Of a stretch of 51,614 nucleotides of DNA, positions 33,845-51,357 are shown piece after piece (position 1 is the stretch's first letter; each line of letters starts with the position of its first letter). The stretch lies in the NCBI RefSeq assembly GCF_019037185.1, contig NZ_JAHHXM010000024.1:1-51614 (forward strand), given 5' to 3'. The translations under genes were made by a program, and so were the position numbers. Below the pieces are notes generated by a model, which did no database searches, was not told the origin of the DNA, and worked only from the letters and a program-made list of their open reading frames with translations. The DNA is from Oceanobacillus caeni (GTDB taxonomy: Bacteria; Bacillota; Bacilli; Bacillales; Amphibacillaceae).

Positions 33845-33853
33845 CATAGTATA
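33845..33853 (+). promoter_or_regulatory. SigK-like -10 box before cotW
   Basis: CATAGTATA fits CATANNNTA, 31 bases before the ATG. No AC at the ideal -35 spacing. Confidence 0.45.
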
Positions 33854-33883
33854 AAGTGAAACTGTTCAAGGAAAGTGGGTGAA

Positions 33884-34096
33884 ATGTCTATGGGTGATTC
33901 ATCAAAAAATTTTAAAATGCCACAAAAAGTAGTAGAGGTAATGATTGATAATATATTTAGAAAAAATGACATTAAAAAGGAAGAAATTAAGAAAAATATA
34001 TCGGAAGAACAAAAAATAATGATCAAAGAAATGATTGAAGACTTAAAACAACAGGTTGAACAATTTAATAAGAAGAATGATGAAACAAAAGAATAG
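33884..34096 (+). CDS. cotW: CotW-like spore crust/coat protein
   Basis: 70 residues from ATG at 33884 (AAGGAAAG upstream); the frame opens at GTG 33875. Lysine/glutamate-rich helix with MIDNIFRKNDIKKEEIKKN then SEEQKIMIKEMIEDLKQQ, which parallels the CotW core (NIFSKHG...KK.SDEEKEML...VKDLQ) of Bacillus subtilis, here without its basic C-terminal extension. CotW takes part in the spore crust with CotX, CotY and CotZ. A CotX-type gene pair lies 1.8 kb downstream, separated by an intron remnant. Assignment from remembered similarity. Confidence 0.65.
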   Translation: MSMGDSSKNFKMPQKVVEVMIDNIFRKNDIKKEEIKKNISEEQKIMIKEMIEDLKQQVEQFNKKNDETKE

Positions 34097-34203
34097 CACA
34101 ATAGGTCTATGAGTGCCTATTTGAGTTTTTTGTTTATGGTATGGATCCTAAATGAAATAAATGAGTTGCATGTTGCAAGGAAATCATGAGTTAAATGACA
34201 GAA

Positions 34204-34241
34204 TATCTCAAGTGTGAATGTTCACTTGGGATATTTTTTTG
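34204..34241 (+). terminator. Terminator
   Basis: ATCTCAAGTG-TGAATGTT-CACTTGGGAT followed by T7, downstream of cotW. Confidence 0.85.
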
Positions 34242-34278
34242 GAAACTTTGTATTAACTTCTTTAATATCAACCCATAT

Positions 34279-34329
34279 GAAGAAGAATTCCATCAGTGGG
34301 GGGTTCCTTCATCCCCTACTGATAATTAG
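34279..34329 (+). repeat. Dispersed folded repeat, copy F, 5' half
   Basis: GAAGAAGAATTCCATCAGTG with hairpin 1 (ATCAGTGGGG/CCCCTACTGAT) and AATTAG, exactly where the intron begins. The 3' half is at 35657-35757. Confidence 0.85.
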
Positions 34330-35656
34330 GTGTGCCAGTGTGCCAGGCATGCGCACATTCTCTAGAGTTGAAGTCCCGAACCATGAAGGCAGTAGTAGTG
34401 GTTCGCCTAAGACAAGGGTGTCTGGAGCGACCCAGAATTTGAAGGAAGTCGGCGGCAAATCTCCGCCCTTAGGGACACGAACTTCATATGAGGCTAGATG
34501 CACTTGGGTAAGACTGCCTAACAAGTCAAAGCCCTTACTGCCAAAAGGTGCATAGAATAAATGAAGTGGGGACATGGAAAGGAAGAGTGTGTGCTTACCC
34601 TGTGAGGTCTGATAGAAATGCGGTACACCTACCGTAACCGAACATGTGAATGTTCGCTGAACTATCAGAAGTCAGCAGAAGCTGTAGTACTGGGTACTTC
34701 TAGAATATCCGGGAAGAGCTGAATCATTTGAGAAGAATTGTTGCATTGCGTACGCAATACTTGATAAAGCAGAAACATATAAACCTTCCTAATGGAGGAA
34801 GGGTGAATCCCGTGGGGGACATTAGAAGGGTTGAAAGTAATTGCCACCCAAGAAGATCGGACAATTCACGTAGGAGTTAGATATCATGTTGGAGCGAATC
34901 CTATCACGAGAAAACTTAATACTCGTAATAAAGCTTGTAGAACGAAATAAAGGAAGCCGCTGTTTAGATGAGATGCCTGTACAAAACCTACGAGCGCATA
35001 TCATGGAACACTGAGCTTCTATTCGAGAACAACTCGAAGAAGGTACCTACTATCCACAACCCATTCGTCGTGTCGAAATCCCGAAACCAAACGGCGCCAT
35101 GTGTTTGACGAATAGGTAGGGACTTTCTATGTTTGGTCGTCCGTATTTGAGATAATCGATTTTCAAGGGGTTCTTTTGCATGAAGCATTAAATTCATTGA
35201 AAGAAAACTTAAATTAAAAGTAAATGAACAGAAAAGCGCAGTAGACCGACCATGGAAACGTCAATTTCTTGGATTTTCTTTCACTTTCCATAAAGCGAAC
35301 CCAAAGATTCGGGTTTCTAAAGAAAGTATCAAACGTTTTAAACAACGCATCAGAGAACTAACCTTTAGAAAGAAGTCTATGAATATACAGGATTGAATCG
35401 AAAAGCTAAATCGATACTTAGGCTAGGCTAAGGAAAAACGTAGGAATGGGCAAACACAAGAAAGACTTACTGGCGTATAGCCAAAAGGCCAATCCTGCAT
35501 AGAGCGCTAGGCGACCGATACTGGTAAAACCTAGGCTTAAAGTGTCTACTTAAATGATATCAAACAATACGTTGGACTTAAATGAAACCGCCATATACGG
35601 AACCGTACGTACGGTGGTGTGAGAGGTCGAAGGTTAGTCACCCCCTCCTACTAGAT
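34330..35656 (+). mobile_element. Decayed group IIC intron
   Basis: Begins GTGTG and ends ..CTAGAT (AY). The boundaries are fixed by comparison with uninterrupted copies of the repeat (AATTAG|TCGCACTTATCG). The 5' ribozyme part has GTTGAAGTCCCGAACC-type domain I sequence; the 3' end has domain V/VI remnants (CGTACGTACGGTGG, GTGAGAGGTCGAAGGTTAG). 1327 bases against about 1.9 kb for intact class C introns, because the reverse-transcriptase centre is deleted. Class C introns insert next to terminator-like hairpins, as here. Confidence 0.85.
34886..35560 (+). pseudogene. Broken intron-encoded reverse transcriptase/maturase
   Basis: N-terminal part MLERILSRENLILVIKLVER, NKGSRCLDEMPVQNLRAHI then a stop, continuing QLEEGTYYPQPIRRVEIPKP NG. 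The palm domain with the YADD site is gone. The C-terminal thumb/X-domain part remains from about 35190 (KLKLKVNEQKSAVDRPWKRQ FLGFSF; later TYWRIAKRPILHRALGDRYW), with several stops. The order and wording are those of class C intron proteins such as the Geobacillus GsI-IIC enzyme. Non-functional, so the intron could move only with a maturase from elsewhere. Confidence 0.85.
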
Positions 35657-35757
35657 TCGCCCTTATCGAACCATTACGGGCAGTTGGTTTCCCACCTACC
35701 CTCTTTGTTTCCCCAGAAGCTTGATCAGGAAGTCTTACTGCCCGTTTAGGTAGGAGA
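35657..35757 (+). repeat. Dispersed folded repeat, copy F, 3' half
   Basis: Resumes TCGCCCTTATCGAACC, then ACGGGCAGT, CCCACCTACC, AGAAGCTTG and ACTGCCCGTTTAGGTAGG, the outer arm being complete. Confidence 0.85.
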
Positions 35758-35878
35758 AATAGACCTATAAATAAATTAATATATATTTCAAGATATTAGC
35801 TAGGGCATAAGCTGGTAGGCTTATTTATTAAATTATATTTCTCTAGTGAATCTGTACAGTCCTACTTAGTAAAAAGAC

Positions 35879-35887
35879 CATAAAGTA
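35879..35887 (+). promoter_or_regulatory. SigK-like -10 box before the cotX/cotV-type pair
   Basis: CATAAAGTA fits CATANNNTA, 29 bases before the ATG; the -35 AC spacing is not ideal. Confidence 0.5.
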
Positions 35888-35915
35888 TTGTATAAATAAG
35901 GAAAGGAGTGTTAGT

Positions 35916-36437
35916 ATGACAGTTTTTAGAAAATCCGATTCAGACAGAAGTAACACTAGATATTTTTATTTGGATGACAACGATTGTCATTCCAACCACC
36001 ACTGTTATTCTGAACCAATGGATGAAGAAACTCATAAAGAGGGTAATTTTTTTGATAGCCCTGAGGCTACAGTCGTGGCTGAATCCGGTGAGTTTTCTTT
36101 TATGGATCAGGAATCCGCTGAATTAATATGGGTGAAAGAATCCTGTGATATTACAATAAATACAACAGATACCCAAGCAGCTGTTTCACTTCAAGTGGCT
36201 TTACAATTGGCAATTGCTATTGTAGTAAGTATCACAATAGGCGATAGTGATCGAAGTGATCATGTTTCTGATCAACTGTTACAACTATCTAATATTGAAC
36301 AAACAAATAAACAAAAAATTTATATTTACAATACAAAAGATGCTACTGTTACTACAACAGATACAGATGTGGCTATCAATGTTCAAATATTACTACAAAT
36401 ATTACTGACGTTAGTAGTATTGGTGGATATCTTATAA
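35916..36437 (+). CDS. cotX: CotX-like spore crust protein with two Coat_X segments
   Basis: 173 residues (Bacillus subtilis CotX has 172). A polar N-terminal third rich in Asp, His and Ser is followed by two copies of the coat-X motif: ITINTTDTQAAVSLQVALQL (about 79-98) and ATVTTTDTDVAINVQILLQI (about 144-163), each ending in a hydrophobic beta/helical run. CotX is a structural protein of the spore crust. GGAAAGGAG upstream of ATG. Forms an operon with the next gene, 23 bases away. Confidence 0.9.
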   Translation: MTVFRKSDSDRSNTRYFYLDDNDCHSNHHCYSEPMDEETHKEGNFFDSPEATVVAESGEFSFMDQESAELIWVKESCDITINTTDTQAAVSLQVALQLAIAIVVSITIGDSDRSDHVSDQLLQLSNIEQTNKQKIYIYNTKDATVTTTDTDVAINVQILLQILLTLVVLVDIL

Positions 36438-36460
36438 ATTACTAAAAAGGGGTGAACAAC

Positions 36461-36892
36461 ATGTCAAGATTGAAAGAATGGCGAGCTTTAGATCATTGTG
36501 ATACTACAGGTGGTGATAATGCTACAATTGAAAAAGATTCAGATCAGTTAGCAAAGACACAACAAGTTTCCGATGAATGGATCATTATTAAAGATTCCGA
36601 AAAGGTTAATGTTACAACAACTGATACACAAGCAGCTATTTCATTACAAGCTGGTATTCAAGTTGCCATTGCAATAGTTCTTAATATTACTATTGCTGAT
36701 TCAAACCGAGCTGAGCAAGTCTTCGATGATCTTAAACAAGTGATTAAGACAAGGCAAGCAAATAGACAGAAAACAATTGTTGAAAAATCAGTAAACGTAG
36801 AAATCACTACTCAAGATACAGATGTAGCAATTAATATTCAACTATTACTTCAAATTCTTGTTGCGATTGTTCTACTATTAGACGTTCTATAA
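36461..36892 (+). CDS. cotV: CotV/CotX-like spore crust protein
   Basis: 143 residues from ATG at 36461 (AAAGGGG upstream; the GTG at 36452 is inside the ribosome site). Again two coat-X segments, VNVTTTDTQAAISLQAGIQV (about 51-70) and NVEITTQDTDVAINIQLLLQ (about 112-131). Clearly paralogous to the preceding gene. Called CotV from its size and position in a CotV-W-X set; the exact orthology is uncertain. Confidence 0.82.
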   Translation: MSRLKEWRALDHCDTTGGDNATIEKDSDQLAKTQQVSDEWIIIKDSEKVNVTTTDTQAAISLQAGIQVAIAIVLNITIADSNRAEQVFDDLKQVIKTRQANRQKTIVEKSVNVEITTQDTDVAINIQLLLQILVAIVLLLDVL

Positions 36893-37020: not shown

Positions 37021-37383
37021 ATGCCTCTAACAGACCGTCAAAGAGCTTTATTGCAATTGATTAGTCAATTGAACCAAAACTTAATTTCAGATACGTTAGG
37101 TTTAGTTGATTTTGACCTAGATCTAGGTCTAGATTTAGGTATTAGTTTGGGTGGTAATAATGGTAATACTCCCCCACCAGATAACGAGCCAGGAACACCG
37201 CCAAGCACAATTACAGAATTATTGTCATCTTTAGTGAATGAGTTAGTGGAAATCACTACTCCTTTTGGCACAATAACAGGCACATTGCTTCAAGTTCTAG
37301 ACGACTATATTGTCATGTTGGAAAACACTGGTGATAGAGTATTAGCCCGTATTGACAAAATCGAACTAGTTAACGAATTATAA
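37021..37383 (+). CDS. Possible crust-associated protein with a small SH3-like C-terminal domain
   Basis: 120 residues: an amphipathic start (LTDRQRALLQLISQLNQNLI), a low-complexity Asp/Leu/Gly stretch (DFDLDLGLDLGISLGG), a Pro-rich linker, then about 50 residues (ITTPFGTITGTLLQVLDDYI and VLARIDKIELV) that look like the DUF2642/Lsm-like folds found in Bacillus coat and spore proteins. GGAAAGGAATG upstream. 12 bases before the next gene, with which it shares the C-terminal fold. I do not recognise a named coat protein. Confidence 0.7.
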   Translation: MPLTDRQRALLQLISQLNQNLISDTLGLVDFDLDLGLDLGISLGGNNGNTPPPDNEPGTPPSTITELLSSLVNELVEITTPFGTITGTLLQVLDDYIVMLENTGDRVLARIDKIELVNEL

Positions 37384-37395: not shown

Positions 37396-37608
37396 GTGTT
37401 CCAAGAAACATTCGCTGCCGAATTAGCCAATCGAATTGGTTCAACGGTTGAAATAGCTACCGATAATAATTTAGTAGAAGGTATCCTGTCAAGCGTTACT
37501 CCGGAACTAGTTCTCGTTCTTGAGGTGAATGATGGCTATGGCGGCAATATAAAAATTTATTTGTCACTAGGTGCAATTAACTTTGTCCGCTTTCCTCAGG
37601 CTGCTTAA
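37396..37608 (+). CDS. Small SH3/DUF2642-like protein
   Basis: 70 residues, GTG start with AAGGAGGG seven bases upstream. One beta-barrel-like domain: GSTVEIATDNNLVEGILSSV then LVLVLEVNDG and INFVRFP. It is a stand-alone version of the C-terminal part of the preceding protein. In an operon between crust genes and a glycosyltransferase; a coat or crust role is inferred. Confidence 0.72.
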   Translation: MFQETFAAELANRIGSTVEIATDNNLVEGILSSVTPELVLVLEVNDGYGGNIKIYLSLGAINFVRFPQAA

Positions 37609-37681: not shown

Positions 37682-38932
37682 TTGAAAGATATCACTGCAA
37701 TTTTAATTAACTATACCAACCCAAATTTCTTGCACAGGGCAATAAACTCCCTTAATACTATTCGTACTAGACTTAAATCTATTATTGTTTTAAAAGAAAA
37801 GAAATCAATTGTCGATCATACCTATAACTGGATAGAGAAAATTGAATTTATAGCGATCAAAGAACACGACTTAAGAAAAACAATAAATCAGATTATTAAT
37901 CAAATTGAAAGTACCTACATCTTCTTCCTCCAAAATACAGAATATGTTTCTCCAACTTTAAAAGTTCATAGCCTTAACCTTCCACAAACTAAGGAAGTAA
38001 TGGAAACGATTGATCATAATAACATCCATCAACCTGTACTCATCCGCACCTTGTTTTTAAAAAAGCAACCTTTTTTTCCTATCCCCTTTAAAGAGGCACT
38101 GCTACCCTCTTGGCTCAGCAACATCAACAGTTCTTATAGATATGTTGAAAAAAACATTGTAAAACAGGCAAGAAATGATAGTTCTAAAAATCAAATTGTG
38201 AAAAACGAGTTTATACAAAAGTATCAAAAAGATACTGAAACGAATAATCCAAGTCTTGCTGTCGTTATTGCAAATTATAATATGGAAAAGTATATAGAAA
38301 CCGCTATTACATCCTGTCTACTTCAAAATGAAAAACCCGAACAAATTTTAATCATCGATGATGGTTCCACGGACTCCTCTTATGAAAAAATTCAAAAATG
38401 GAACGATAAAAGAGAGGTTAATATTTTTCACCAGGAAAATAAAGGGAAAGCCCAAGCATTAAACCATATACTCCCTAACATAACATCTGATTTTATTTTA
38501 GAACTTGATGCAGATGACTGGCTTGATCCCGATGCCATTTCCACGATTAAAAAGTATTTAATACATCTCGATCAGGATATTTCGGTATTGTACGGTAATC
38601 TTAGAAAGTGGAAGCAATTAACAAACAGGGATGTCCTCTATAAAAGGATTGCTAAAGGCATGCCAGTTATTAAACGAAAAGATTTATTAAATTATCACTT
38701 TCCACTTGGACCAAGAATTTATCGAAGCTCTACATTAAAGCAAGTTGGAGGATTTCCAGTGATTGATTTCGAAAATGGCCATCTTTACGAAGATGTGAGT
38801 GTTTTAAACCGCTTAATTAATTGTTCTCGAATCGAATATAAGGATTTTACTGTATATAATGTGCGAGACCACAGTGAAAGTATCACTAAAAACAATCTTT
38901 CCAAATGGAAGGATTTTATTAAAACACTGTAA
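37682..38932 (+). CDS. Family 2 glycosyltransferase with an N-terminal extension
   Basis: 416 residues, TTG start with GGAGGG upstream. The C-terminal 220 residues are a GT-A domain: VVIANYNMEKYIETAI (about 197), IIDDGSTDSS (about 226), ELDADDWLDPDA (about 270) with the metal-binding DxD, and a LYEDVSVLNRL acceptor region (about 365). The first 190 residues begin like a second GT-A domain (ITAILINYTNPNFLHRAINS) but lack its DxD. Cytoplasmic sugar transfer from a nucleotide sugar. The TTG-started gene follows crust genes, which suggests a spore-surface glycan. Confidence 0.85.
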   Translation: MKDITAILINYTNPNFLHRAINSLNTIRTRLKSIIVLKEKKSIVDHTYNWIEKIEFIAIKEHDLRKTINQIINQIESTYIFFLQNTEYVSPTLKVHSLNLPQTKEVMETIDHNNIHQPVLIRTLFLKKQPFFPIPFKEALLPSWLSNINSSYRYVEKNIVKQARNDSSKNQIVKNEFIQKYQKDTETNNPSLAVVIANYNMEKYIETAITSCLLQNEKPEQILIIDDGSTDSSYEKIQKWNDKREVNIFHQENKGKAQALNHILPNITSDFILELDADDWLDPDAISTIKKYLIHLDQDISVLYGNLRKWKQLTNRDVLYKRIAKGMPVIKRKDLLNYHFPLGPRIYRSSTLKQVGGFPVIDFENGHLYEDVSVLNRLINCSRIEYKDFTVYNVRDHSESITKNNLSKWKDFIKTL

Positions 38933-38948: not shown

Positions 38949-39014
38949 AAAAAATACCCAAGTGAACTTCCCCTGTCATGTGGATGGGGAATATTCACTT
39001 GGGTATTTTTTTAT
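38949..39014. terminator. Strong bidirectional terminator
   Basis: AAAAAATACCCAAGTGAAC and a matching ATTCACTTGGGTATTTTTTT arm with an inner TTCCCC/GGGGAA stem; placed between convergent genes. Confidence 0.92.
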
Positions 39015-40132
39015 TTACTTTCAAAATAACGCTCCACGGAAGAAATAATATAATTTTGATTTCGGAAAGTTAATGTAGGGGAAATAGGAAGAGCTAATAT
39101 CCTTTCAGCTGTTTCTTCTGCGATTGGGAAATCTCCACTCTTATAATTCAAATAATCAAAAGCTTTCTGAAGGTGAAGGGGAATCGGATAATAAATGGCG
39201 GTGGCAATTCCAGAGTCGTTTAAATAGGATGCAAGTTCATCCCTTTCATCTAATTCAATACAATACTGATGAAAAGTATGTTCCCGATTTTTAGCTATTG
39301 ACGGAGTTGTTAAATAGGAAGGCAGGTTTTCTGTATACATTCTAGCTACTTCTTTTCTTTTATGCAGAAAAATATCTAAGAAGTTAAATTTGACTAATAA
39401 TATAGCCGCTTGGATTTCATCCAATCTACTATTCATACCGATAGTTGAATGATGATATTTTTTTTCACTTCCGTGGTCTCTAATCTTTTTAATCTTTTCA
39501 TAAATATGTTTATGATTGGTTGTTATAAACCCCGCATCACCGAACGCTCCTAAATTTTTTGATGGAAAGAAAGAAAAACAACCAACATCCCCTATTGCTC
39601 CAACCCTCCTACCATTAGACTCAGTTCCAATAGCTTGGCAGGCATCTTCTATTACTTTCAAATGATGAGTATTAGCTATCCTCATTATTTCCTTCATGTT
39701 TGCGGCTTTTCCAAACAGATGGACGACAAGAATTGCTTTTGTATTTTTGGTTATTACTTTTTCAATATTAGAAGGATTCATATTGTATGTTTCTTTTTCA
39801 ATATCAACAAAAACAGGTGTAGCCCCTGCCTCCGCAATCGCCTCTGCGGTGGCAAAAAAAGTAAACGGAGTTGTAATAACTTCATCTCCTGGACCGATAT
39901 CTAATGCTTTTAGAGCCAATAATAAAGCATCCGTACCATTTGCTGTACCGAGCCCATAAGAAGCCTCAACGTATGATGCAATAATTGTTTCTAATTGTTT
40001 TCCTTTTTCCCCTAGTACATAAACCCCACTATCTAAGACTTCTGTCATCATTTCTAAAATAGGTGTTCTCATTAGCTTTAATTCCTCTTTTAAATCAATC
40101 ATTGGTATCTTTTTAAAGTTATTGTTTGACAT
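39011..40132 (-). CDS. DegT-family PLP aminotransferase (WbpE-like)
   Basis: 373 residues. Sugar aminotransferase fold with GTANGTDALLLAL (about 58), VVHLFGK (about 131), EDACQAIG (about 157) and the PLP lysine in FFPSKNLGAFGDAG (about 183-196). WbpE transfers an amino group from glutamate to the 3-keto group of UDP-3-keto-GlcNAcA. ATG follows directly on the stop of the dehydrogenase gene upstream (no gap), so the two proteins are co-translated. The 3-amino assignment rests on the company of the other four pathway enzymes. Confidence 0.85.
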   Translation of the reverse strand: MSNNNFKKIPMIDLKEELKLMRTPILEMMTEVLDSGVYVLGEKGKQLETIIASYVEASYGLGTANGTDALLLALKALDIGPGDEVITTPFTFFATAEAIAEAGATPVFVDIEKETYNMNPSNIEKVITKNTKAILVVHLFGKAANMKEIMRIANTHHLKVIEDACQAIGTESNGRRVGAIGDVGCFSFFPSKNLGAFGDAGFITTNHKHIYEKIKKIRDHGSEKKYHHSTIGMNSRLDEIQAAILLVKFNFLDIFLHKRKEVARMYTENLPSYLTTPSIAKNREHTFHQYCIELDERDELASYLNDSGIATAIYYPIPLHLQKAFDYLNYKSGDFPIAEETAERILALPISPTLTFRNQNYIISSVERYFESK

Positions 40133-41425
40133 TTAACCATCATTCCCTATTCCTAGATACGTAATTCCCAACTTCGATATGCTATTTTTATCCAGTTTAT
40201 TCCGACCATCCATTATAATTTTACAATTATTAAATATTCTAAAATCTAAGTTTTCATATTCTTGATGGAAAGCTTGAAGGATGACAACATCCATTTTAGA
40301 TATATCTAATGAGTCTAGTGACAAAGGGTTGATATGGAATCTTTCAATTTCACTATCGGAGAACAGTGGATCATTTACAAATACGTTTGCATTTTTATCT
40401 TTTAATTGGTCTATTAATAGTAATGTAGTAGATTTTGTTGTCTCCTTTACATTTTCCCTATAAGCCAATCCTAAAATAAGAACATTTTTATTCTCTAATT
40501 CCCCTATCTCTTTTTCAACTTTGGAAATCGCATAATGAGCCATATGATCATTTATTTGTCTTGAAAGAGGAGTCAGTCCTTGGTCTAGACCTTTATTAAT
40601 GAAGAAATATGGATAAATTGGTATACAATGCCCCCCAACACCAATTCCTGGAGAGTGAATATTGGAATATGGTTGACTATTACTAGCCTCTATCACTTCT
40701 GATATTTGAACGTTTTGCTTTTCGGCAAATAAACTTAATTCATTGGCAAGTGCAATATTTACATCACGATACACACATTCTGCGACTTTCGAAAATTCAG
40801 CAGTCTCTAAAGAACTTACTTCCATTACTTCACATTCTAAAGCACGTTTATAAAAGTTTTTAGCAAGCTCAAGGCTTTTTTCATCTATTCCTCCCACCAC
40901 TTTGGGATAAACGTTCAAATCCTGTATGATTCGGTTTGAATAAACTCTTTCAGGACTATAAGCTAAATGAAAATCTTTTCCCATCGTTAATTTTGATATT
41001 TCTTCTACTTTCCTTCCAAATCTATTTTTCGTTGTTCCTGGTGGAAGAGTTGTTTCAAAAACTAATAGAGAACCTTTCTTCATTCCCTTAGCTATTTCCT
41101 GAACAGCCAAATCAATATATTGATAATCAATATGATTCTCTTCATCAACTAATACCGGAACAATAACTATAATAATATCTGATTGACTGACTGCTTCAGA
41201 TGTATTAACTGTCGCACTAAGTGTTTGTTTCTTATAAGCGTTATAAACAAGTTGTTCTATACCTGGTTCGTTCATTATATGTGATTTTCCTTGATTAACC
41301 GTGTCAACAACTTTTTGGTTTATATCTGCACCTATAACTCTATATCCATTATTGGCGAATACAGCTGCTAAAGTTAGTCCAATCTTTCCTAGTCCAACAA
41401 CCGTCACTACTGCCAACGGTTCCAT
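40133..41425 (-). CDS. UDP-N-acetyl-hexosamine 6-dehydrogenase (WbpA/WecC-like)
   Basis: 430 residues. N-terminal Rossmann VVGLGKIGLTLAAVFA (about 9-24), FETTLPPGTT (about 123), YSPERVY (about 157), active-site Cys in GVGGHCIPIYPYFF (about 264-277) and the C-terminal UDP-binding domain with GLAYRENVKETTKS (about 320). It oxidises C6 of UDP-GlcNAc or UDP-ManNAc to the uronic acid using NAD. GGAGGCTAACC upstream. First gene of a two-gene operon with the aminotransferase. Confidence 0.88.
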   Translation of the reverse strand: MEPLAVVTVVGLGKIGLTLAAVFANNGYRVIGADINQKVVDTVNQGKSHIMNEPGIEQLVYNAYKKQTLSATVNTSEAVSQSDIIIVIVPVLVDEENHIDYQYIDLAVQEIAKGMKKGSLLVFETTLPPGTTKNRFGRKVEEISKLTMGKDFHLAYSPERVYSNRIIQDLNVYPKVVGGIDEKSLELAKNFYKRALECEVMEVSSLETAEFSKVAECVYRDVNIALANELSLFAEKQNVQISEVIEASNSQPYSNIHSPGIGVGGHCIPIYPYFFINKGLDQGLTPLSRQINDHMAHYAISKVEKEIGELENKNVLILGLAYRENVKETTKSTTLLLIDQLKDKNANVFVNDPLFSDSEIERFHINPLSLDSLDISKMDVVILQAFHQEYENLDFRIFNNCKIIMDGRNKLDKNSISKLGITYLGIGNDG

Positions 41426-41547: not shown

Positions 41548-41613
41548 TTTAAAGAAGACTTCCACCTACTGTTTCCCCACAAGCTTGAGTCGGGAGTCTT
41601 ACTGCCCGTTTAA
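41548..41613 (+). repeat. Dispersed folded repeat, copy G, forming the end of a gene
   Basis: Left end TTTAAAGAAGACTTCCACCT joined to the right end TTTCCCCACAAGCTTGAGTC and ACTGCCCGTTTAA; the middle is deleted. The minus-strand glycosyltransferase gene reads into it, and its final NGQ and TAA come from AACGGGCAGTAA of the repeat. Confidence 0.8.
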
Positions 41614-42843: not shown

Positions 42844-42913
42844 TTTATCCTCCTTCAAAAAATCATAGTTTACCTATTTAATGTTTGCTTAAATAATACT
42901 TTTGTTTTTCACT

Positions 42914-43091: not shown

Positions 43092-44365
43092 ATGAAAATG
43101 CCAAACTTTACTACACGTTTAAAAACAGTTAGCAATCACCGTTATAAAATTAAATTCATGGAAGATGGGTATCCCGGGAAGGATTTAGGAGAAACGGTTG
43201 CTTGTCATCCGATTTATGGAGTATATGTCATAAGAGACTACCTGTTTCAATTCAAAAAAACGAAAGATATCAACTATCAAAAAGCAGCGATGAGAGTTGC
43301 TGATGCAGCTATTCATAGAATGGAAAGTTTTAAAGATACATTGGTGTTTTGGTACAAATCAAACTCTGCCTTTAACTCTATGAATAGAGATTATTATTCT
43401 GGTTTAACACAATCATACTATGCCGAAGTCTTTGCACAACTTTATGCCTCAACAAATAAAGAAAAATACAAAGATGCAGCCCAAAAGGTTTACCATAGCT
43501 TAAAAATTCCAGTTACTGAAGGTGGGGTCTTTCATCATTCCTTATACGGGCCAAGTATACAGGAATACCCTATGGAGCCAAATGGCTATGTTCTAAACGG
43601 GTGGCTGTCAGCGATATCTTCAATTAAAAAATATGCTGATATCATACAAGACAAAGATGCAACTAAATTTTGGAATAAAAATCTAAATACATTAGCTAAC
43701 TTACTCCCTTTATATGATGCACCACAATTCGCAAATTCTAGATATACATTAAACGGCAGTACAACTATTAAGATTCAATCAACTGCAGGTAATATGGAGC
43801 TACAAGGAATTCATTTAAACGTTCCTGGGGAAGGGACATTTGAATTATTAGTTGATGATAAAAAAAATATATGAATTGTATTCATGATAATTCAGTGGTA
43901 AAAAAAGGACAGAAGATTTTCACCAAAAATCAATCCGCATTAATAAATGTATTATTAAGCAGATATTCATATCCTGAGACAAACGAAATTACGATTCATC
44001 TAGTTAGCGAAAACGCAGGATTGTTGACTCTCTCTATGATAAAACCAAAGTATTCTGCTAAAACTATGAAACCTGACAAATCTGTGGTGCTAGATAAAAT
44101 TCCAATTCAAAAAGGAAAAAATGTCATCAAGGTTAAAATACCTTGGCAACACTTAGAGGCACTAGGAAATCCCACTACTTTTAAACAATTTGGCAATAAA
44201 TGGCATAATGTTTATCACTTCATACACATTAATAGACTTGAAGAATTTTATCATATCACGCAAGACAAAAGATTATTGCATTATATAAACAAATGGAAGA
44301 AATATGTAGATTCATGGAGTAATAATCCATTATATAAGGGAGTGGAAACAGTTCCCTATAAGTAG
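43092..44365 (+). pseudogene. D-glucuronyl C5-epimerase-family gene split by a poly-A frameshift
   Basis: Two frames, 43092-43874 (260 aa) and 43871-44365 (164 aa), meet at A8 (43860-43867). One extra A would give a continuous protein of about 424 residues (DDKKKYMNCIHDN). The first part is the C5-epimerase alpha-helical domain: RDYYSGLTQSYYAEVFAQLY (about 98-117), EGGVFHHSL (about 144) and EPNGYVLNGWLSAI (about 160); the second part carries a beta domain and a last helical segment. Family members invert C5 of hexuronic acids in polymers. AGGAGG before the ATG. The break may be a sequence error, phase variation or slippage, so 'pseudogene' is provisional. Confidence 0.75.
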
Positions 44366-44395: not shown

Positions 44396-45643
44396 ATGAA
44401 AAAAAAAGTATGTATGTTAATACACACCCATTCTTTTTTAGATTCTAGAATATTTAAAAAGGAAGCCAAAACGTTACAAAAGAATGGTTATGACGTAACA
44501 ATGATTGTACCTAGGGTTAAAGGGAATTTATTTGATATCGATAAGGCTCCTTTTAATGACCGTTTCTTACAACCAAGTTTTATGCACGAAGATATAAAAA
44601 TAGTTACCTATAAAATAGAATCTTTTAAACCCTCCCCCATCGAAATGCAAAGCCACATAGATCATGGTAATCATACCAAATTCGAAAATCCACTAACACA
44701 ACTCGGACTGGAAGAAAAAGCAGATATTTATCATGCCCATGAGTTAGGTTCATTATATGCAGGTATTGGCATCAAACGAAAGATGAAGGAATTACACAAT
44801 ACAGAAGTAAAATTAATATACGATAGTCACGACCTAATTCCGGATCCATTAGATAATAAAACCATTCCACAAAAAAGGAAAACAGCAATGTTAAAGTTAC
44901 TAAATACCATGATTAAAGAAATTGATCAACTTATAACGGTATCTCACTCCATCAAATCCTGGTATCTTTCAAAAAATCCATTGCTTCCGGTTGAAATTAT
45001 TTACAATTCTCCTCCTCTTGCCAAACCATTTGAACCTAAAGATTACAAGAATAACAAACTTACGGTTTGTTATGAAGGTCATATTGCAGATAACAAAAAA
45101 GGAAGCAGGGATAAAATATTCGATATTACAAATATATGTTCAAAGCAAACCGACTTTAACTTTAAAATAATTGGCGGTGTATTACATGGACACTCCTTAA
45201 CTGTCCCAGATAATTTGAAGAAACATGTAGAGTTAACAGGTTGGGTTGATTATCATTCCATTTCAAAGCATATGGAGAATGTTGATATTGGTTGGATTGA
45301 TTTTGATGATTTATCCCAATCCCTTAATCGATCCTATGCATTACCTAATAAATTTTTTAGTTATTTAAACAATGGAATCCCTGTAGTTGTTAATAAATGC
45401 CATGAGATGGAAGAATTTATTCGAACACATAAGTGTGGGCTTGTTATCAATAAACCGAAAGCGACAGCACAAGACTACGCAAGGGCGTTTCTATATTTAA
45501 ATAAAAATAGAGCAAAACTAACACAAATGAGTGTAAATGCGAGAAAGGTAATGGAAAACTTATATAGCTGGGAACACATGGAAAAAAGGTTGTTAAATGT
45601 CTATGAATCGTTAATAAATGGTAATAGCCCATTCATTCTATAA
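44396..45643 (+). CDS. Family 4-type glycosyltransferase, paralogue
   Basis: 415 residues, ATG with AAGGAGG seven bases upstream. Same layout as the 41599 protein: VCMLIHTHSFLDSRIFKKEA start, DIYHAHELGSLYAGIG (about 112), IYDSHDLIPDP (about 142), LTVCYEGHIADNKKGS (about 222) and LPNKFFSYLNNGIPV (about 318). It follows the epimerase gene by 30 bases on the same strand. The two enzymes probably add related sugars; donor and acceptor are unknown. Confidence 0.87.
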   Translation: MKKKVCMLIHTHSFLDSRIFKKEAKTLQKNGYDVTMIVPRVKGNLFDIDKAPFNDRFLQPSFMHEDIKIVTYKIESFKPSPIEMQSHIDHGNHTKFENPLTQLGLEEKADIYHAHELGSLYAGIGIKRKMKELHNTEVKLIYDSHDLIPDPLDNKTIPQKRKTAMLKLLNTMIKEIDQLITVSHSIKSWYLSKNPLLPVEIIYNSPPLAKPFEPKDYKNNKLTVCYEGHIADNKKGSRDKIFDITNICSKQTDFNFKIIGGVLHGHSLTVPDNLKKHVELTGWVDYHSISKHMENVDIGWIDFDDLSQSLNRSYALPNKFFSYLNNGIPVVVNKCHEMEEFIRTHKCGLVINKPKATAQDYARAFLYLNKNRAKLTQMSVNARKVMENLYSWEHMEKRLLNVYESLINGNSPFIL

Positions 45644-45645: not shown

Positions 45646-45673
45646 GTGGGGGGAGCTTTTTACCCCCCACGAA
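45646..45673. terminator. Bidirectional terminator
   Basis: GTGGGGGG-AGCTTTTTA-CCCCCCAC between convergent genes; includes the last codons of the 2-epimerase gene. Confidence 0.7.
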
Positions 45674-46733
45674 TTATCCTATAAATTTTTTCCGATGTTT
45701 TTCCATCTCCAAATAACATTGGGTAGGAATCTGGTTCCTTTTTAGCTGATATTTCTTTTAAAATTTTCTGGTGATCAGACGCACCAACAATACTATTCCA
45801 TTTTGCTTCTACCGTTTCAATCCATTCTGTTTCATCCCGCAACGTGATACAAGGAACTTGAAGCATATAAGCCTCCTTTTGAACACCTCCAGAATCAGTT
45901 AATATCATCTTTGCTTCGCTTTCTAAAGCAAGCATATCAAAATAATTCAAGGGTTCAATCGTATGAATATGGGAGGCTGTGATCATGGATTCCAAATTCC
46001 AATGCTCTATCTTTTTCTTTGTTCGCGGGTGCAATGGAAGTACTACAGGCCTATCTAATTGGGACAGTACCTTCAACAATGTTTGAAGTCTATCCATTCT
46101 ATCCGTATTTTCCGCACGATGAACGGTAGCAAGGTAATAATCTTTCTTGTCAAGATTCAACCTGCTAAAAAGGGTAGAATGTTTTAAAGCTTCAGACTTA
46201 AAATGAAGAACCGCATCATACATAATATCACCTGTTATAAAGACCCTATCTTTTATCCCTTCCCTCTTTAAATTACTATGAGCACTTTTCGTTGGACAAA
46301 ATAACCATGTAGAAAGATGGTCCGTTAAAAGTCGGTTAATCTCCTCCGGCATCTTTTTATTAAAACTACGCAGCCCTGCCTCTACATGGGCAATTGGTAT
46401 ATGCAACTTTGAAGCCGCTAAGCTACCTGCAAGGGTAGAATTGGTATCCCCATAAACAAGAACGATATTAGGTTCTTCTTTGAATAAAATAGATTCAATT
46501 TCTGATAACATTCTTCCCGTTTGATTCCCGTGAGTACCAGATCCAATCCCTAGATTATAATCTGGCTTCGGAATTTTCAACTGGTCAAAGAAAATATCGG
46601 ACATATTTGCATCATAATGTTGTCCTGTATGAACTAATATTTCTTTTATGTTAGGATCTTTCTGGAATAATCTTGATAACATGGAAACTTTTATAAATTG
46701 TGGCCTTGCTCCAACTACAGTTACAATTTTCAC
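45660..46733 (-). CDS. Non-hydrolysing UDP-sugar 2-epimerase (WbpI/WecB-like)
   Basis: 357 residues. KIVTVVGARPQFIKVSMLSR start, TGQHYDANMSDIFFDQLKIP (about 36-55), VYGDTNSTLAG (about 93), HVEAGLRSF and MPEEINRLLTDHLS (about 113-137), LTDSGGVQKEA (about 281). The NMSDIFF and KPDYNLGIGSG wording is closer to WbpI, which epimerises UDP-2,3-diacetamido-glucuronate to the manno form, than to plain UDP-GlcNAc 2-epimerases. Last gene of a minus-strand operon with the acetyltransferase (15 bases) and the CgeB-like gene. Confidence 0.87.
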   Translation of the reverse strand: MKIVTVVGARPQFIKVSMLSRLFQKDPNIKEILVHTGQHYDANMSDIFFDQLKIPKPDYNLGIGSGTHGNQTGRMLSEIESILFKEEPNIVLVYGDTNSTLAGSLAASKLHIPIAHVEAGLRSFNKKMPEEINRLLTDHLSTWLFCPTKSAHSNLKREGIKDRVFITGDIMYDAVLHFKSEALKHSTLFSRLNLDKKDYYLATVHRAENTDRMDRLQTLLKVLSQLDRPVVLPLHPRTKKKIEHWNLESMITASHIHTIEPLNYFDMLALESEAKMILTDSGGVQKEAYMLQVPCITLRDETEWIETVEAKWNSIVGASDHQKILKEISAKKEPDSYPMLFGDGKTSEKIYRIIRGG

Positions 46734-46748: not shown

Positions 46749-47429
46749 CTAGGAATTAATCTTTCGAGCAGGAACGCCAACAACAGTAATATTTTCTTCT
46801 AAGTCTTTAGTAACAACGGAACCAGCACCTACTATTGTATTTCTGCCTATTTTAATTCCTGGAAGTAGTGAAGCATTGTTCCCAATCTTTACTCCCTTTT
46901 CGATATATGCTCCTTTTAAAGAGTATGGTTTAGTCCCCATATACTTATCATTCGACATCGAGACACAAGGTCCGATGAAAACATCATCCTCCAGCGTTGT
47001 ATCCCCAGTTACATATGCAAGTGTTTGAATGGTGCAATTTTTCCCTATTTTTGAATTCAATTCTACAATAGCTGCTCTTCCAACAACAGTTCCTTCCCCT
47101 ATTAAGACATTCTCTCTAATGCTTGCATGATCACCAATAAATACATTTTTGTCAATATGTGTCCCTGAATAAACGGAAGCCAAATTTCCAATTCTAGTCC
47201 CTGATTGAATAATTAATGAAACATTTTCCTGTGAAATTTTTCTCATTCTTTTGTTGACCGCCGGTTTTATACCTAATACACAGCTGTTTCCAATAACAAC
47301 ATCATCAGCGATTTTAGTGCCTTGTAATATAGTGGTGTGATGACCGATTACGACATTTTCTCCAATTGTCACACCTTTTTCAATAACGACATGACTTCCT
47401 AACTCTACACTTTCTGGAATGACAGACAA
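46749..47429 (-). CDS. Hexapeptide-repeat N-acetyltransferase (WbpD-like)
   Basis: 226 residues, TTG start preceded by GGGGG. Left-handed beta-helix throughout: repeats such as VVIEKGVTIGENVVIG (12-27), NVFIGDHASIRENVLIG (about 96) and IKIGRNTIVGAGSVVTKDLE (about 193-212), with the sugar acetyltransferase insert FIGPCVSMSNDKYMG (about 153). WbpD acetylates the 3-amino group of UDP-GlcNAc3NA with acetyl-CoA. It is about 30 residues longer than WbpD, with an extra segment near 55-75. Confidence 0.85.
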   Translation of the reverse strand: MSVIPESVELGSHVVIEKGVTIGENVVIGHHTTILQGTKIADDVVIGNSCVLGIKPAVNKRMRKISQENVSLIIQSGTRIGNLASVYSGTHIDKNVFIGDHASIRENVLIGEGTVVGRAAIVELNSKIGKNCTIQTLAYVTGDTTLEDDVFIGPCVSMSNDKYMGTKPYSLKGAYIEKGVKIGNNASLLPGIKIGRNTIVGAGSVVTKDLEENITVVGVPARKINS

Positions 47430-47444: not shown

Positions 47445-48365
47445 TTAAAAAACAATGCTTTCCATTCTTTCAACTAATTGCCGAGCTCTTATTTTAACGG
47501 AGTGGTTTTCGTGAATAAAATGATAGCCTTGTTCAGCAATTTGCTGTCGTTTAATTTCATTCTTTAAATAGTATGCAGCCTTCTCTTTAAAGTTGTTTTC
47601 ATCGATTGGAACAAAGTGTGTACCTGGAATAAAACCAATATCTTCCAGTTCCTTGAATGTAGGTGCTAAAAGTAACGTATTACACGCTAAAACCTCAAAA
47701 TATTTTCTGACAGGATAATAATATATCGATGGGCACGTAAAAAAGATCTTGGCTCGATTTATCTCCTTAGCGTAATAGGAGCCAATAAAATGTTGGGTTT
47801 CTTCCTGTTCATTAAATGACTTATATCCCGGATGCTCGTGGTAAACAAAATTAGAGTTTTCTTTATATGTGTTACGTATTTTTTTTCTTAATGGATAAAT
47901 ATCGTTTACCGCCCCCATCATTAATAGATGAATAGTCTTTTGTTTATGATAATCCCTATAAATTTTTGTATTAATAAAATGAGGAAACCATTCCATTTTA
48001 TGTTGAAATTCTGGGTAAATTTCGATGAATTTATCTCGAGCTATTGTGAATAAATAAGGTATTTTATTTTTGGAAATAAAATTTCTTCGATGATTTGTAA
48101 ATCGATGAACATCATTAATAAATAATCCTACGGGAATGTCAATGTTCGCTAAACCCTTAATTAAAGGAGAAAATTTTTTGCCTATATCATTTAATAATAA
48201 AATAAAATCTGGTCGGATAGATAATTTTTTGAGAATAGAACTGATATGTCCATTTTTTCTCCAGAATGTGACATGTGCTATCTTAACAAGCTCCTGTTCA
48301 AGATAATAAAAGTTTTTGTTCAAAAGTTGAGATGTATCTTCAGCAATAAATAATATATGAATCAT
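47445..48365 (-). CDS. CgeB-like glycosyltransferase
   Basis: 306 residues from ATG at 48365 (AAAGGGTGGG upstream). GT-B-like: IHILFIAEDTSQLLNKNFYY start, GLFINDVHRFTNHRRNF (about 82), MEWFPHFINTKIYRD (about 122), and the C-terminal donor site KYFEVLACNTLLLAPTFKEL (about 223-242), as in the spore maturation protein CgeB family. CgeB decorates the spore crust of Bacillus subtilis late in sporulation. First gene of the operon with wbpD- and wbpI-like genes. Specificity unknown. Confidence 0.8.
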   Translation of the reverse strand: MIHILFIAEDTSQLLNKNFYYLEQELVKIAHVTFWRKNGHISSILKKLSIRPDFILLLNDIGKKFSPLIKGLANIDIPVGLFINDVHRFTNHRRNFISKNKIPYLFTIARDKFIEIYPEFQHKMEWFPHFINTKIYRDYHKQKTIHLLMMGAVNDIYPLRKKIRNTYKENSNFVYHEHPGYKSFNEQEETQHFIGSYYAKEINRAKIFFTCPSIYYYPVRKYFEVLACNTLLLAPTFKELEDIGFIPGTHFVPIDENNFKEKAAYYLKNEIKRQQIAEQGYHFIHENHSVKIRARQLVERMESIVF

Positions 48366-48446
48366 ACCCACCCTTTCTTAGATTTGTAGTTAAAGAGCCA
48401 ATTTATCTCTTTCATTACCATCGTCCATATCAATTTTTAACCAAAA

Positions 48447-48455: not shown

Positions 48456-48489
48456 TATTAGGAGTTCAACAAATATGAGGAGGTTAAAT

Positions 48490-49443
48490 ATGAAAATCGG
48501 AGTAATCGGTATTGGGAAAATGGGAGAAAATCATGTTCGAACATACTTATCCCTTCCAAACCATTGCGAACTCGTGGGTATATACGATATAGACGAAAAG
48601 AGAGCAAATGAAATTGCTAAAAAATATCAGATTAAACCTTTTCATTCTTTAGATAACCTTCTCCGATCAGTTGATGCTGTTAGTATTGCTGTACCAACAG
48701 AATTTCATTATAAAGTTGGCTTATCTTGTATAAAGCATAACGTGCACATGTTAATGGAAAAACCAATTACTAGTACAGTAGATCAAGCAAAGGATTTGAT
48801 TAATCGGGCAAAAAAAGCTGGTATTAAACTACAAATTGGTCACATTGAACTCTTTAATCCATTAATACAATTCCTAAAAAATAAATTGCAAACTGAGAAA
48901 ATTGTAGAAATTGTTCATTACAGAATGAGTCCACATGATGATAGAACGAAAGATATTGATGTGGTGAAAGATCTAATGATTCATGATTTATATATCTTAG
49001 ATGAACTCCTTAAAGATGACTATAGCGATTTGTATTCCCTTGGGAAAGTAATAAATGGAATCCCAGAACACGCTGTTACTATGATTAAATCTTTAACAGG
49101 AGTGACAGCTCAGCTAACTGCAAGTTTTAAATCTATAAGGAAAGTTAGGACGATTAACGTCGTCACAGAAGATGCCTTTTTTGAGGTTGATATTTTAAAT
49201 AACGTGATGAAAATCTCTCGCTCTATTAAAGAAGATAACAGTGATATTCCAGTACCGATTATAGAAACCATTCAATTTGACAGCTCTATAAAGCCATTAA
49301 GCCTACAAGTATTAGATTTCATGAATTGTATTAATAAAGATGGAAAACCTAAAGTGACCGGAGAAGATGGATTGAAAATATTATTTTTGACGAATAAAAT
49401 TAGCGAATCTATTATTCATTCAAATGAAAACAAGGATAAATAA
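48490..49443 (+). CDS. Gfo/Idh/MocA-family UDP-sugar 3-dehydrogenase (WbpB-like role)
   Basis: 317 residues from ATG at 48490 (GAGGAGG six bases upstream). NAD-binding KIGVIGIGKMGENHVRTYLS (2-21), AVPTEFH (about 69), the family lysine in LMEKPIT (about 92) and HIELFNPLI (about 119), with VKDLMIHDLYILD (about 160) holding the catalytic His. Enzymes of this group oxidise C3 of UDP-GlcNAc or UDP-GlcNAcA. It supplies the 3-keto step otherwise missing from the pathway. It is closer in pattern to UDP-GlcNAc 3-dehydrogenases than to Pseudomonas WbpB itself. Confidence 0.8.
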   Translation: MKIGVIGIGKMGENHVRTYLSLPNHCELVGIYDIDEKRANEIAKKYQIKPFHSLDNLLRSVDAVSIAVPTEFHYKVGLSCIKHNVHMLMEKPITSTVDQAKDLINRAKKAGIKLQIGHIELFNPLIQFLKNKLQTEKIVEIVHYRMSPHDDRTKDIDVVKDLMIHDLYILDELLKDDYSDLYSLGKVINGIPEHAVTMIKSLTGVTAQLTASFKSIRKVRTINVVTEDAFFEVDILNNVMKISRSIKEDNSDIPVPIIETIQFDSSIKPLSLQVLDFMNCINKDGKPKVTGEDGLKILFLTNKISESIIHSNENKDK

Positions 49444-49642: not shown

Positions 49643-49999
49643 TTAAAAATCTGTGAGTCTATTTACTACAGATTCCAAAAATCCTGCCGCACCTGTAATT
49701 GCAAGAACGATAATGACGAATTCCATAACAGTCGGCCAAACATAATAAAGCCCTAACAGCAAAACTGCACACCATACTCCTGTGCACCAATAACAGCTAA
49801 GTAATTCGCCTACCCATTTTTTAATTCCATTTCCTTTTATTTGTATATATGTTACAACTGTTCCATCCTCTTCTACTTCTTCCACTTCCTCTATAAATGG
49901 TGATCTTAAAAATGCGGTTATTTTATCAAAAACAATCAATCTAGTTAATCGAAATGTTGCCAATGCTAACAATAAAAATTCGAAAACTGATAAATTCAT
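49643..49999 (-). CDS. DUF1360 protein, YjcA-like sporulation membrane protein
   Basis: 118 residues from ATG at 49999 (AGAGGATGATGAA upstream); the longer frame to 50098 has no ribosome site. FLLLALATFRLTRLIVFDKI start (about 8-27), an acidic segment EEVEEVEEDG, the family motif ELLSCYWCTGVWCAVLL (about 66-82) with three cysteines, and two or three membrane helices. In Bacillus subtilis yjcA is a sporulation gene beside cotVWX and yjcZ, which matches the content of this locus. Confidence 0.85.
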   Translation of the reverse strand: MNLSVFEFLLLALATFRLTRLIVFDKITAFLRSPFIEEVEEVEEDGTVVTYIQIKGNGIKKWVGELLSCYWCTGVWCAVLLLGLYYVWPTVMEFVIIVLAITGAAGFLESVVNRLTDF

Positions 50000-50112
50000 T
50001 TCATCATCCTCTTTAATGAACGTATTGAAAAAAACGTATTGTATTGTATGAGTTTTAATAACAATTGGTATAGGCAGCAACGTACAGAGTAATGGCAATT
50101 TATCATGAAGAA

Positions 50113-50121
50113 CATATTGTA
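50113..50121 (+). promoter_or_regulatory. SigK-like -10 box before the yjaZ-like gene
   Basis: CATATTGTA fits CATANNNTA; the start codon is 68 bases on, across repeat copy H. Confidence 0.35.
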
Positions 50122-50122
50122 A

Positions 50123-50163
50123 TAATGAAGACCTCCATCAGTTATCGGATCTTCACGGGCAGG
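50123..50163 (+). repeat. Dispersed folded repeat, copy H (short)
   Basis: AATGAAGACCTCCATCAGTT joined to ATCGGATCTTCACGGGCAG: the left end fused to the start of the rod, hairpin 1 and the 3' half being lost. In the leader of the YjaZ-like gene. Confidence 0.65.
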
Positions 50164-50189
50164 ATAAATATTGTAAAGGAGGGAATGGA

Positions 50190-50968
50190 TTGAGTGTTAT
50201 CAATACAAAAAAATGGTTAGATCAAGAATCCTATAATCCAATCAAACTTTGTAAAAAATTAGAACCTTACTTTAATAAATTGGATGCCCAAAATATTTAT
50301 CATTATTTAACATTAAACGGAATGTTTCGTAAATCTAAAGCAGTAGAAAATAATTTCATAAAGGATCCAAATAAAATTTATAACATCATTAAACGGGAAC
50401 ATCAGAGCCTTAGGAAGGAATGGCATGGCCCGGATATTCCTATTATTATCTTACCTTCCGATCCAATGAATCAAAAATTAATAAAAGAGTTCAATGGGAA
50501 GTCTGGACTAGCTTTTAAGGATAAGTTATTTCTTTTTTTATCTAAGAAAAATACGACGGACGAAATTCGGGCATTGTTCGTTCATGAATATAATCATGTT
50601 TGTCGGTTGAAACATTACAAAAAAAAAAGGAAGAAAAGTTCACATTACTTGATACGGTTATTCTTGAAGGGTTAGCTGAACATGCGGTATTAGAAAGGTT
50701 TGGAAAAAAATACCTAGCAAGCTGGACCTCTTACTATGACTCCTCCATCCAACAAAAATTATGGAAAAGGTTTGTTCAACCTAACAAAGACATTTCTGTC
50801 CAAAACCCAAAGCATAACCATATCCTTTACGGTTTAAAGTTATATCCTAAAATGACTGGTTATTCCGTTGGTTATTATTTAGTTAATAACTATATCCAAA
50901 AACACAACACAGCTATTAAAGACATGTTAAGTATGGATTCAACAAGGATTGCGTCGATTTCAACTTAG
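50190..50968 (+). pseudogene. DUF2268 (YjaZ-like) predicted zinc protease, frameshifted
   Basis: Frames 50190-50675 and 50600-50968 overlap. At A10 (50619-50628) one extra A would restore a single protein of about 259 residues, the size of Bacillus YjaZ. Part 1 ends with the zinc-metalloprotease motif FVHEYNHVCRLKHY (HExxH, about 131-144); part 2 continues LDTVILEGLAEHAVLERFGK with the third metal-ligand Glu. TTG start (50190) preceded by AAGGAGGG. Either sequence error or loss; the intact protein would be a cytoplasmic protease of unknown substrate. Confidence 0.8.
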
Positions 50969-51040
50969 AATTTTATTCATTACACATAGCCCAAATTACC
51001 TCAATCTAGACGTACACCCATATCATACAAACGCCCGACA

Positions 51041-51049
51041 CATATAGTA
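51041..51049 (+). promoter_or_regulatory. SigK-like -10 box before the yjcZ-like pair
   Basis: CATATAGTA fits CATANNNTA, 33 bases before the first ATG; only the -10 element is clear. Confidence 0.5.
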
Positions 51050-51081
51050 ATATTGTAAATCACTTTGGAGGTGATGTTTAA

Positions 51082-51180
51082 ATGAGTAATGTTGAAGGTG
51101 GCTATGGTGGAGGCTTTGCCTTACTTGTAGTATTGTTCATACTATTAATTATTGTGGGCTCAGCTTACGTTGCCTGCTAA
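51082..51180 (+). CDS. YjcZ-family sporulation peptide (32 aa)
   Basis: MSNVEGGYGGGFALLVVLFI continues LLIIVGSAYVAC. Gly-rich head plus the conserved membrane helix [25 protein letters not shown] upstream of the ATG. Ends in a cysteine, unlike the 20003 copy. Confidence 0.88.
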   Translation: MSNVEGGYGGGFALLVVLFILLIIVGSAYVAC

Positions 51181-51228
51181 AGTAAAATAAGGATGGTTTC
51201 TTAAATAAATAAAAGGAGGAATTCAATA

Positions 51229-51357
51229 ATGGGCTTCGGATGTGGATGTTACGGATACGGTGGTTACGGCTATGGTGGTTATGGACGCGGAAACGGATTT
51301 GCGTTAATCGTTGTTTTATTTATCCTTCTAATAATCGTTGGTGCAGCTTGGCTGTAA
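51229..51357 (+). CDS. YjcZ-family sporulation peptide with Gly-Tyr-rich head (42 aa)
   Basis: [20 protein letters not shown] then [22 protein letters not shown]. The head consists of GYGG repeats with a CGC pair; the helix is nearly the same as in the 20003 peptide. AAAGGAGG upstream. Probably cotranscribed with 51082, 48 bases away. Tyr and Cys suggest oxidative cross-linking in the spore envelope (inference). Confidence 0.88.

Follow-up and report, generated by a model that had tools for sequence, protein, structure and literature searches.

A candidate spore-surface glycosylation island with UDP-ManNAc3NAcA pathway genes beside crust-type genes in Oceanobacillus caeni

The window analysed here is an entire contig of Oceanobacillus caeni (NZ_JAHHXM010000024.1, our G000:C16), with a length of 51614 bases and ending at nt 51614. 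At 33.9–51.4 kb, preceded by what we take from the translations to be ctaD/E/F-type genes (nt 30012–32843), it carries spore-crust-type genes together with genes for UDP-2,3-diacetamido-mannuronic acid (UDP-ManNAc3NAcA). Which surface is this sugar meant for, and why does its gene set stand among crust genes? The answer we favour, with a probability of about 0.72, is that the locus is a spore-surface glycosylation island, by which the mother cell makes UDP-ManNAc3NAcA and puts the sugar on crust proteins. The case for it lies in the gene families of the locus, the specificity residues of WbpI, a linkage conserved among relatives, island spans free of exporters, and sigma-K genes in the carriers.

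Sugar-nucleotide and crust-type genes of the island

In order, the locus holds a CotW-like gene, two Coat_X genes, a DUF2642-like gene and its small partner, a family 2 glycosyltransferase (GT2) gene, and the WbpE- and WbpA-type genes. Onward follow a family 4 glycosyltransferase (GT4) gene, a frame-broken C5-epimerase gene, a second GT4 gene, the WbpI- and WbpD-type genes, a CgeB-like gene, the WbpB-type gene, a YjcA-like gene, a frame-broken YjaZ-like gene and two YjcZ genes.

As the original prediction held, family matches place all five UDP-ManNAc3NAcA enzyme types in the window. The WbpA-type UDP-sugar 6-dehydrogenase (nt 40133–41425, minus strand) matches PF03721, PF00984 and PF03720 and passes the TIGR03026 cut-off. 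The WbpB-type 3-dehydrogenase (nt 48475–49443, plus strand; PF01408, E 6.8e-32) has 7bvj as its nearest solved relative (E 1.4e-36), and the WbpE-type 3-aminotransferase (nt 39011–40132, minus; PF01041, E 6.4e-117) matches 7b0d (E 1.9e-106) and Pseudomonas aeruginosa WbpE (3nyu, E 1.5e-79). The WbpD-type hexapeptide N-acetyltransferase (nt 46749–47429, minus; PF00132, E 1.6e-35) matches the N-acetyltransferase 7s43 (E 1.5e-23). For the WbpI-type 2-epimerase (nt 45660–46733, minus; PF02350, E 5.8e-111) the nearest solved relative is 8sxv, the Thermus UDP-2,3-diacetamido-glucuronic acid (UDP-GlcNAc3NAcA) 2-epimerase (E 1.7e-128). The available part of a study of the T. thermophilus enzyme names Trp307, Tyr96 and Ala18 as changes suiting UDP-GlcNAc3NAcA (PMC10622841). 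Trp304 and Tyr94 of the window protein align with Trp307 and Tyr96, and Val replaces Ala18. Across the islands described below, Trp and Tyr are each present in 15 of 15 WbpI sequences, with Ala (13), Val (1) or Ser (1) at the third place. Judged by alignment, then, WbpI retains residues suiting UDP-GlcNAc3NAcA. These residues mark the substrate and not a link to spores, since Trp occurs in 85 and Tyr in 83 of 91 other WbpI sequences.

We infer the timing, place, acceptors, product structure and order of steps as follows. Late in sporulation, the mother cell would convert UDP-GlcNAc to UDP-ManNAc3NAcA by means of five soluble enzymes, namely WbpA, WbpB, WbpE, WbpD (as 3-N-acetyltransferase) and WbpI. 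Soluble CgeB-like, GT2 and two GT4 transferases would attach the sugar, along with others, to crust proteins from the mother-cell side, the likely acceptors being the Coat_X proteins and the DUF2642-like protein. The C5-epimerase, in many relatives, would then invert a uronic acid within the chain. As crust assembly takes place in the cytoplasm of the mother cell, neither flippase nor polymerase would be needed.

The CotX/CotV-like genes of the original prediction correspond to two Coat_X genes on the plus strand, coding for 173 (nt 35916–36437; CotX-like, PF07552, E 1.6e-38) and 146 amino acids (nt 36452–36892; PF07552, E 5e-40). The proposed CotW-like gene is present as an open reading frame (ORF) for 73 amino acids (nt 33875–34096, plus) and is kept beside Coat_X in congeners G016, G021, G013, G023 and G001 with 51–79% identity, but its name comes from synteny, as the only Pfam match is spurious and below cut-off and NCBIfam gave none. 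A group II intron that lacks an ORF takes up about 1.33 kb between the CotW-like and Coat_X genes (nt 34330–35656, plus); its D1–D4 parts pass the Rfam cut-offs and its domain V/VI part falls short. The intron splits a dispersed repeat, the flanks of which (about 54 and 104 bases) adjoin elsewhere in the genome (61 matches in G000); G016 lacks an intron at the corresponding place.

The DUF2642-like protein (nt 37021–37383, plus) has a Pro/Thr-rich linker and matches PF10842 just under cut-off (E 4.8e-4), a cut-off that its Virgibacillus orthologue passes (23.2 bits). Its 70-residue partner (nt 37396–37608, plus) matched no Pfam or NCBIfam family. Four transferase genes stand close by: GT2 (nt 37682–38932, plus; domain at residues 194–320, PF00535, E 1.1e-24, with no family assigned to the N-terminal part), two of GT4 type (nt 41599–42858, minus, PF13439, E 4e-9; nt 44396–45643, plus, PF13439, E 9.4e-9 and PF13692, E 1.2e-8), and a glycosyltransferase (nt 47445–48371, minus) that matches PF13524 (E 1.3e-17). 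The predicted CgeB-like transferase is there as a PF13524 protein, the match on which the name is based; NCBIfam gave none. The GT2 and both GT4 genes, the DUF2642/small-protein pair and the C5-epimerase homologue were absent from that first list of genes. Its YjcA-, YjaZ- and YjcZ-like genes are all present, as a DUF1360 protein (nt 49643–50098, minus; PF07098, E 4.4e-39), a DUF2268 gene in two overlapping frames (nt 50190–50968, plus; PF10026 in both ORFs) and two YjcZ-family sporulation proteins (nt 51082–51180 and 51229–51357, plus; TIGR01732, E 2.7e-14 and 1.9e-10).

Linkage of the sugar genes to crust-type genes in relatives

One set of 58 genomes, 28 of them from the genus, was screened for WbpI, for Coat_X and for the CgeB-like protein. 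The full set, with the CotW-like/Coat_X/Coat_X/DUF2642/partner module as in the window, was found in four congeners. Two of these (G016 and G021) keep the window's location after the cta genes, and in the other two (G013 and G023) the coat genes stand on the opposite side of WbpB in different surroundings. Coat_X and WbpI are 6 to 10 kb apart in the window and the four congeners with island-type WbpI, a proximity that is more than chance. More distant WbpI genes lie far from Coat_X in G005 and G012, and on a contig of 4666 bases in G001.

More widely, 84,980 species genomes were scanned with a WbpI alignment, and 80 of at least 571 confirmed loci were listed. Among the 80 listed, crust-type genes occurred within 10 kb only at L091–L094, and neither in the other 75 nor at Geomicrobium locus L095. 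Coat_X and the DUF2642 pair stand beside the set in Virgibacillus salexigens, Lentibacillus sp. CBA3610 and Salibacterium aidingense, and the pair without Coat_X does so in Salinibacillus kushneri. These four carriers and Geomicrobium halophilum are mostly inhabitants of salty places. A search for WbpB in 397 genomes of the order matched 15, including the window's own, and eight of the 14 others (G322, G377, G191, G309, G216, G297, G265 and G068) hold the pair beside WbpB and the wbp set. Coat_X is also present in the G322, G191 and G216 islands; those of G297, G265 and G068 have the pair only.

With G377 and G309 counted once together with the Salinibacillus and Salibacterium islands, there are at least 16 distinct islands. 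The five wbp families occur together in 15 of the 16 (Geomicrobium is without a full WbpA), Coat_X adjoins in 11 and the DUF2642 pair in 15, so the predicted linkage of crust and wbp genes in related genomes is borne out. Order and surroundings vary while the gene set remains together. The stretch fetched for G216 stops before CgeB, cutting WbpD, and the first GT4 gene was not seen in the two shortest islands (G265 and G068). WbpB profile scores were 378–620 for the islands versus at most 224 in 75 other listed loci; five of the islands supplied the gene profiles, and scores on these are high by construction.

How closely the DUF2642 pair follows glycan genes can be judged within the genus. 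Coat_X clusters are present in 21 of the 28 genomes (none in six, and only a broken frame in G017), and the pair occurs in eight of the 21. Five of these are the island genomes; in G001 it adjoins a different glycan set, and in G009 and G027 a GT2 gene only. None was seen in the other 13, at loci of about 3.2 kb that reach only about 0.8–1.5 kb past Coat_X. The pair thus tends to travel with transferases. B. subtilis CgeA is described, in the available text of PMC11708026, as a glycoprotein required for starting polysaccharide assembly, and by analogy the DUF2642-like protein is a candidate glycan acceptor or anchor.

Export genes, sporulation genes and alternative explanations

In agreement with the original prediction, no flippase, polymerase or ligase is found among the ORFs of the window at 33.9–51.6 kb. 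By a hydropathy count, polytopic ORFs are missing from all 16 island spans, none of which is laid out as a Wzx/Wzy- or ABC-type locus, and a polytopic ORF lies within 10 kb of 24 of 26 other Bacillota WbpI loci, the thresholds being at least four segments and 200 residues inside the span for islands and at least seven segments and 250 residues within 10 kb for controls. The control figure becomes 26 of 30 once four omitted loci are added (L120 and L153, with polytopic ORFs; L130, on a 6.4-kb contig, and L170, with none); 11 short loci of about 4 kb from other genera were excluded from this comparison. Beyond the span itself, polytopic ORFs do occur at some islands; ctaD is an example in the window. 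Capsule-type export genes just outside the locus, which the original prediction had named as contrary evidence, are seen neither in the window nor in G016, but this holds for the window only up to the contig end at nt 51614. In G016, which has the window's layout, about 7.5 kb past the YjcZ gene is without glycan or capsule genes, as judged from translations with no family search.

A sigma-K gene is present in all 16 carriers, over cut-off in 12 and as separate halves in four (G023, G216, G265 and G068), and the CotY/CotZ family is present in 15, G297 being the exception. In these four the two halves share a contig and are separated by about 37 to 55 kb (G023:C7, G216:C34, G265:C4 and G068:C8), an arrangement that resembles the skin element of B. 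subtilis.

Several points weigh against a spore-surface role. The grouping of island WbpI proteins is modest: in a quick tree of 106 sequences, 15 island proteins, together with those of G166 and Geomicrobium, are set apart by a branch whose support of 84 does not reach the starred level. On the favourable side, the island label changes three times on this tree versus 14.3 times in shuffles (0 of 500 as low), although kinship alone clusters such a label. WbpB, WbpE and WbpD reached no NCBIfam equivalog cut-off. Five of the 16 islands had no Coat_X on the stretch read, six of the 14 other WbpB genomes (G166, G243, G091, G344, G081 and G282) hold other or partial sets, and Geomicrobium halophilum (L095) has the glycan set with a fragment of WbpA and without crust genes within 10 kb. 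The promoter boxes, one basis of the link to sporulation made in the original prediction, are weak. CATAnnnTA occurs in 18 of 71 upstream regions versus 5.8 ± 2.4 in shuffles, and TATAAT and TTGAC are not above chance there, but the antisense strand has 11, and the strict sigma-K two-box pattern turns up in only two of 58 upstream regions, each time in G021 and never in the window. The window and four congeners share a CATA box ahead of WbpB, which was not found in L093 or L094.

One alternative is that the sugar is part of a vegetative wall polymer (a secondary cell wall polymer, teichuronic acid or capsule), with export genes elsewhere and crust genes adjacent by position only. Besides the lack of crust linkage in Geomicrobium, this view can draw on congeners G005 and G012, in each of which two polytopic proteins accompany a wbp set, and on a Streptomyces griseus teichuronic-acid-like wall polymer, a Gram-positive example containing ManNAc3NAcA according to the accessible part of PMC13274773. 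Moreover, a single WbpI match in the window's genome reaches E 1e-60 or better, so that whatever use is made of the sugar has to draw on the island set. Against this stand the 16 spans without exporter or polymerase, the maintenance of crust-type linkage in differing surroundings, and the position of the WbpI proteins of G005, G012 and other Bacilli loci outside the island group. We regard this explanation as unlikely and, for the missing exporters and the tree positions, set it aside as the principal one.

A different spore layer, an outer coat or exosporium-like structure, might instead be decorated, with the crust genes lying next to the island and sharing its late control. For B. subtilis, the part of PMC7439481 available suggests at least two glycans on the spore surface, one belonging to the outer coat and the other to the crust. 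In G033, a collagen-like protein (GATGAT... repeats, Gly-Ala-Thr) adjoins a Coat_X module, DUF2642 pair and GT2 (L174, 12173–16815). The neighbours retained across islands are, however, Coat_X genes and the DUF2642 pair, and we hold this alternative, too, to be improbable.

Frames are broken at two places of the window less than 7 kb apart, in the gene for the C5-epimerase (nt 43871–43900) and in the YjaZ-like gene (nt 50600–50675), and these breaks could be taken as signs that the island is decaying in this strain and makes no finished glycan. The breaks may be due to either decay or sequencing error; the first falls at a run of eight A, where sequencing error is also possible. The genes for the five sugar-nucleotide enzymes and for the four transferases, on the other hand, have open frames and full length compared with congeners. 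Decay of the island appears very improbable, and a probably working spore-surface glycosylation island is still the preferred reading.

The C5-epimerase, glycan variation and comparison with known systems

The most surprising part of the island is the C5-epimerase family protein, which is present in 10 of the 16. In the window it occupies two frames (nt 43092–43874 and 43871–44365; together 43092–44365, plus), with a PF06662 match in the first (E 6.1e-27) and none in the second; G016 carries an uninterrupted form of 443 residues. This long form is also found in G191, G216 and Geomicrobium, and a short form in Salinibacillus, Salibacterium, Lentibacillus, Virgibacillus and G322. None was seen in the islands of G021, G013, G023, G297, G265 and G068. 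Pfam was run on the copies of the window, L093, L094 (both about E 1e-54) and L095 (E 1.2e-30), and the rest were recognised by profiles from these and relatives. D-glucuronyl C5-epimerases work on chains, and a polymer containing uronic acids would therefore be expected.

Related species may hold other sets beside the same crust genes. In G001 (L090, 5970–17742), the same coat module and pair lie beside CgeB-like, Polysacc_synt_2, sulfotransferase, GT61 and sulfate-activation genes, the latter a PAPS_reduct-domain protein and an APS kinase fusion, and this gene content suggests a sulfated spore glycan. A similar sulfotransferase and APS kinase set in G033 (L173) lies about 20 kb from coat modules. 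If sister species exchange the island at the same crust genes, as with the sulfotransferase/3'-phosphoadenosine-5'-phosphosulfate (PAPS) set of G001, a reading that seems less likely than not, spore-surface glycans would vary like O-antigens. Separately, an ORF resembling an N-acetylmuramoyl-alanine amidase, so named from a look at its translation, adjoins an unassigned ORF of 440–450 residues in the Salibacterium-type islands (L092, 5703–8571; L201, 6855–9779) and near a coat module of G033 (L174, 3676–6465).

Spore-surface sugars govern wetting and adhesion (PMC11708026, PMC7439481), and even for B. subtilis the structure of crust glycans is described as unknown (PMC11708026), as far as the accessible parts of these articles go. 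The crust sugars named in the available text of PMC10502511 and PMC11708026 do not include ManNAc3NAcA. In a survey of titles and the beginnings of abstracts, with most subscription journals outside its reach, no spore glycan built on this sugar was found. A mother-cell crust sugar is known, legionaminic acid, and so is a wall polymer with ManNAc3NAcA; what would be new is this sugar at the spore crust, with the conserved island suggesting a spore-surface glycan that has yet to be described. With the sugar-nucleotide route, transferases, candidate acceptor pair and crust genes together, donor, transferase and acceptor are testable as a single unit, and so is a C5-epimerase outside the usual export pathways.

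Among known systems, the wbp pathway of P. aeruginosa O-antigen and T. thermophilus has the five enzyme families and the WbpI specificity residues in common with the island. Unlike that pathway, the island stands outside any lipid-linked exported polymer locus and is without Wzx, Wzy or an initiating transferase. The S. griseus polymer shares ManNAc3NAcA but is, in the available account, a wall polymer of growing cells from another kind of cluster (PMC13274773). The human D-glucuronyl C5-epimerase GLCE aligns with the short form of Virgibacillus (L094 with chain 6hzz, E 3.6e-59), which retains the Tyr that distinguishes chain 6hzz from chain 6i01, whereas the long form, the window's type, is more remote (L095 with 4pw2, E 7.1e-10). 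The closest functional parallel would be B. subtilis crust glycosylation (spsA-L with spsM, cgeAB-cgeCDE, yfn and ytd-ytc), where, according to the accessible text, a rare sugar, synthesis in the mother cell and soluble transferases are found as proposed here; the mother cell produces legionaminic acid, which is then attached to the crust (PMC7439481), and CotV/CotX and CgeA are counted among the glycosylated proteins or the candidate acceptors (PMC7439481, PMC11708026). Possible cge-type relatives in the island are the CgeB-like and GT2 genes. The sps and cge genes of B. subtilis lie away from its crust genes, and adjacency is thus no requirement there. The island differs from the B. subtilis system in its predicted sugar, UDP-ManNAc3NAcA in place of legionaminic acid, rhamnose and others, in sugar genes that stand with the Coat_X genes, and in the C5-epimerase added in most islands.

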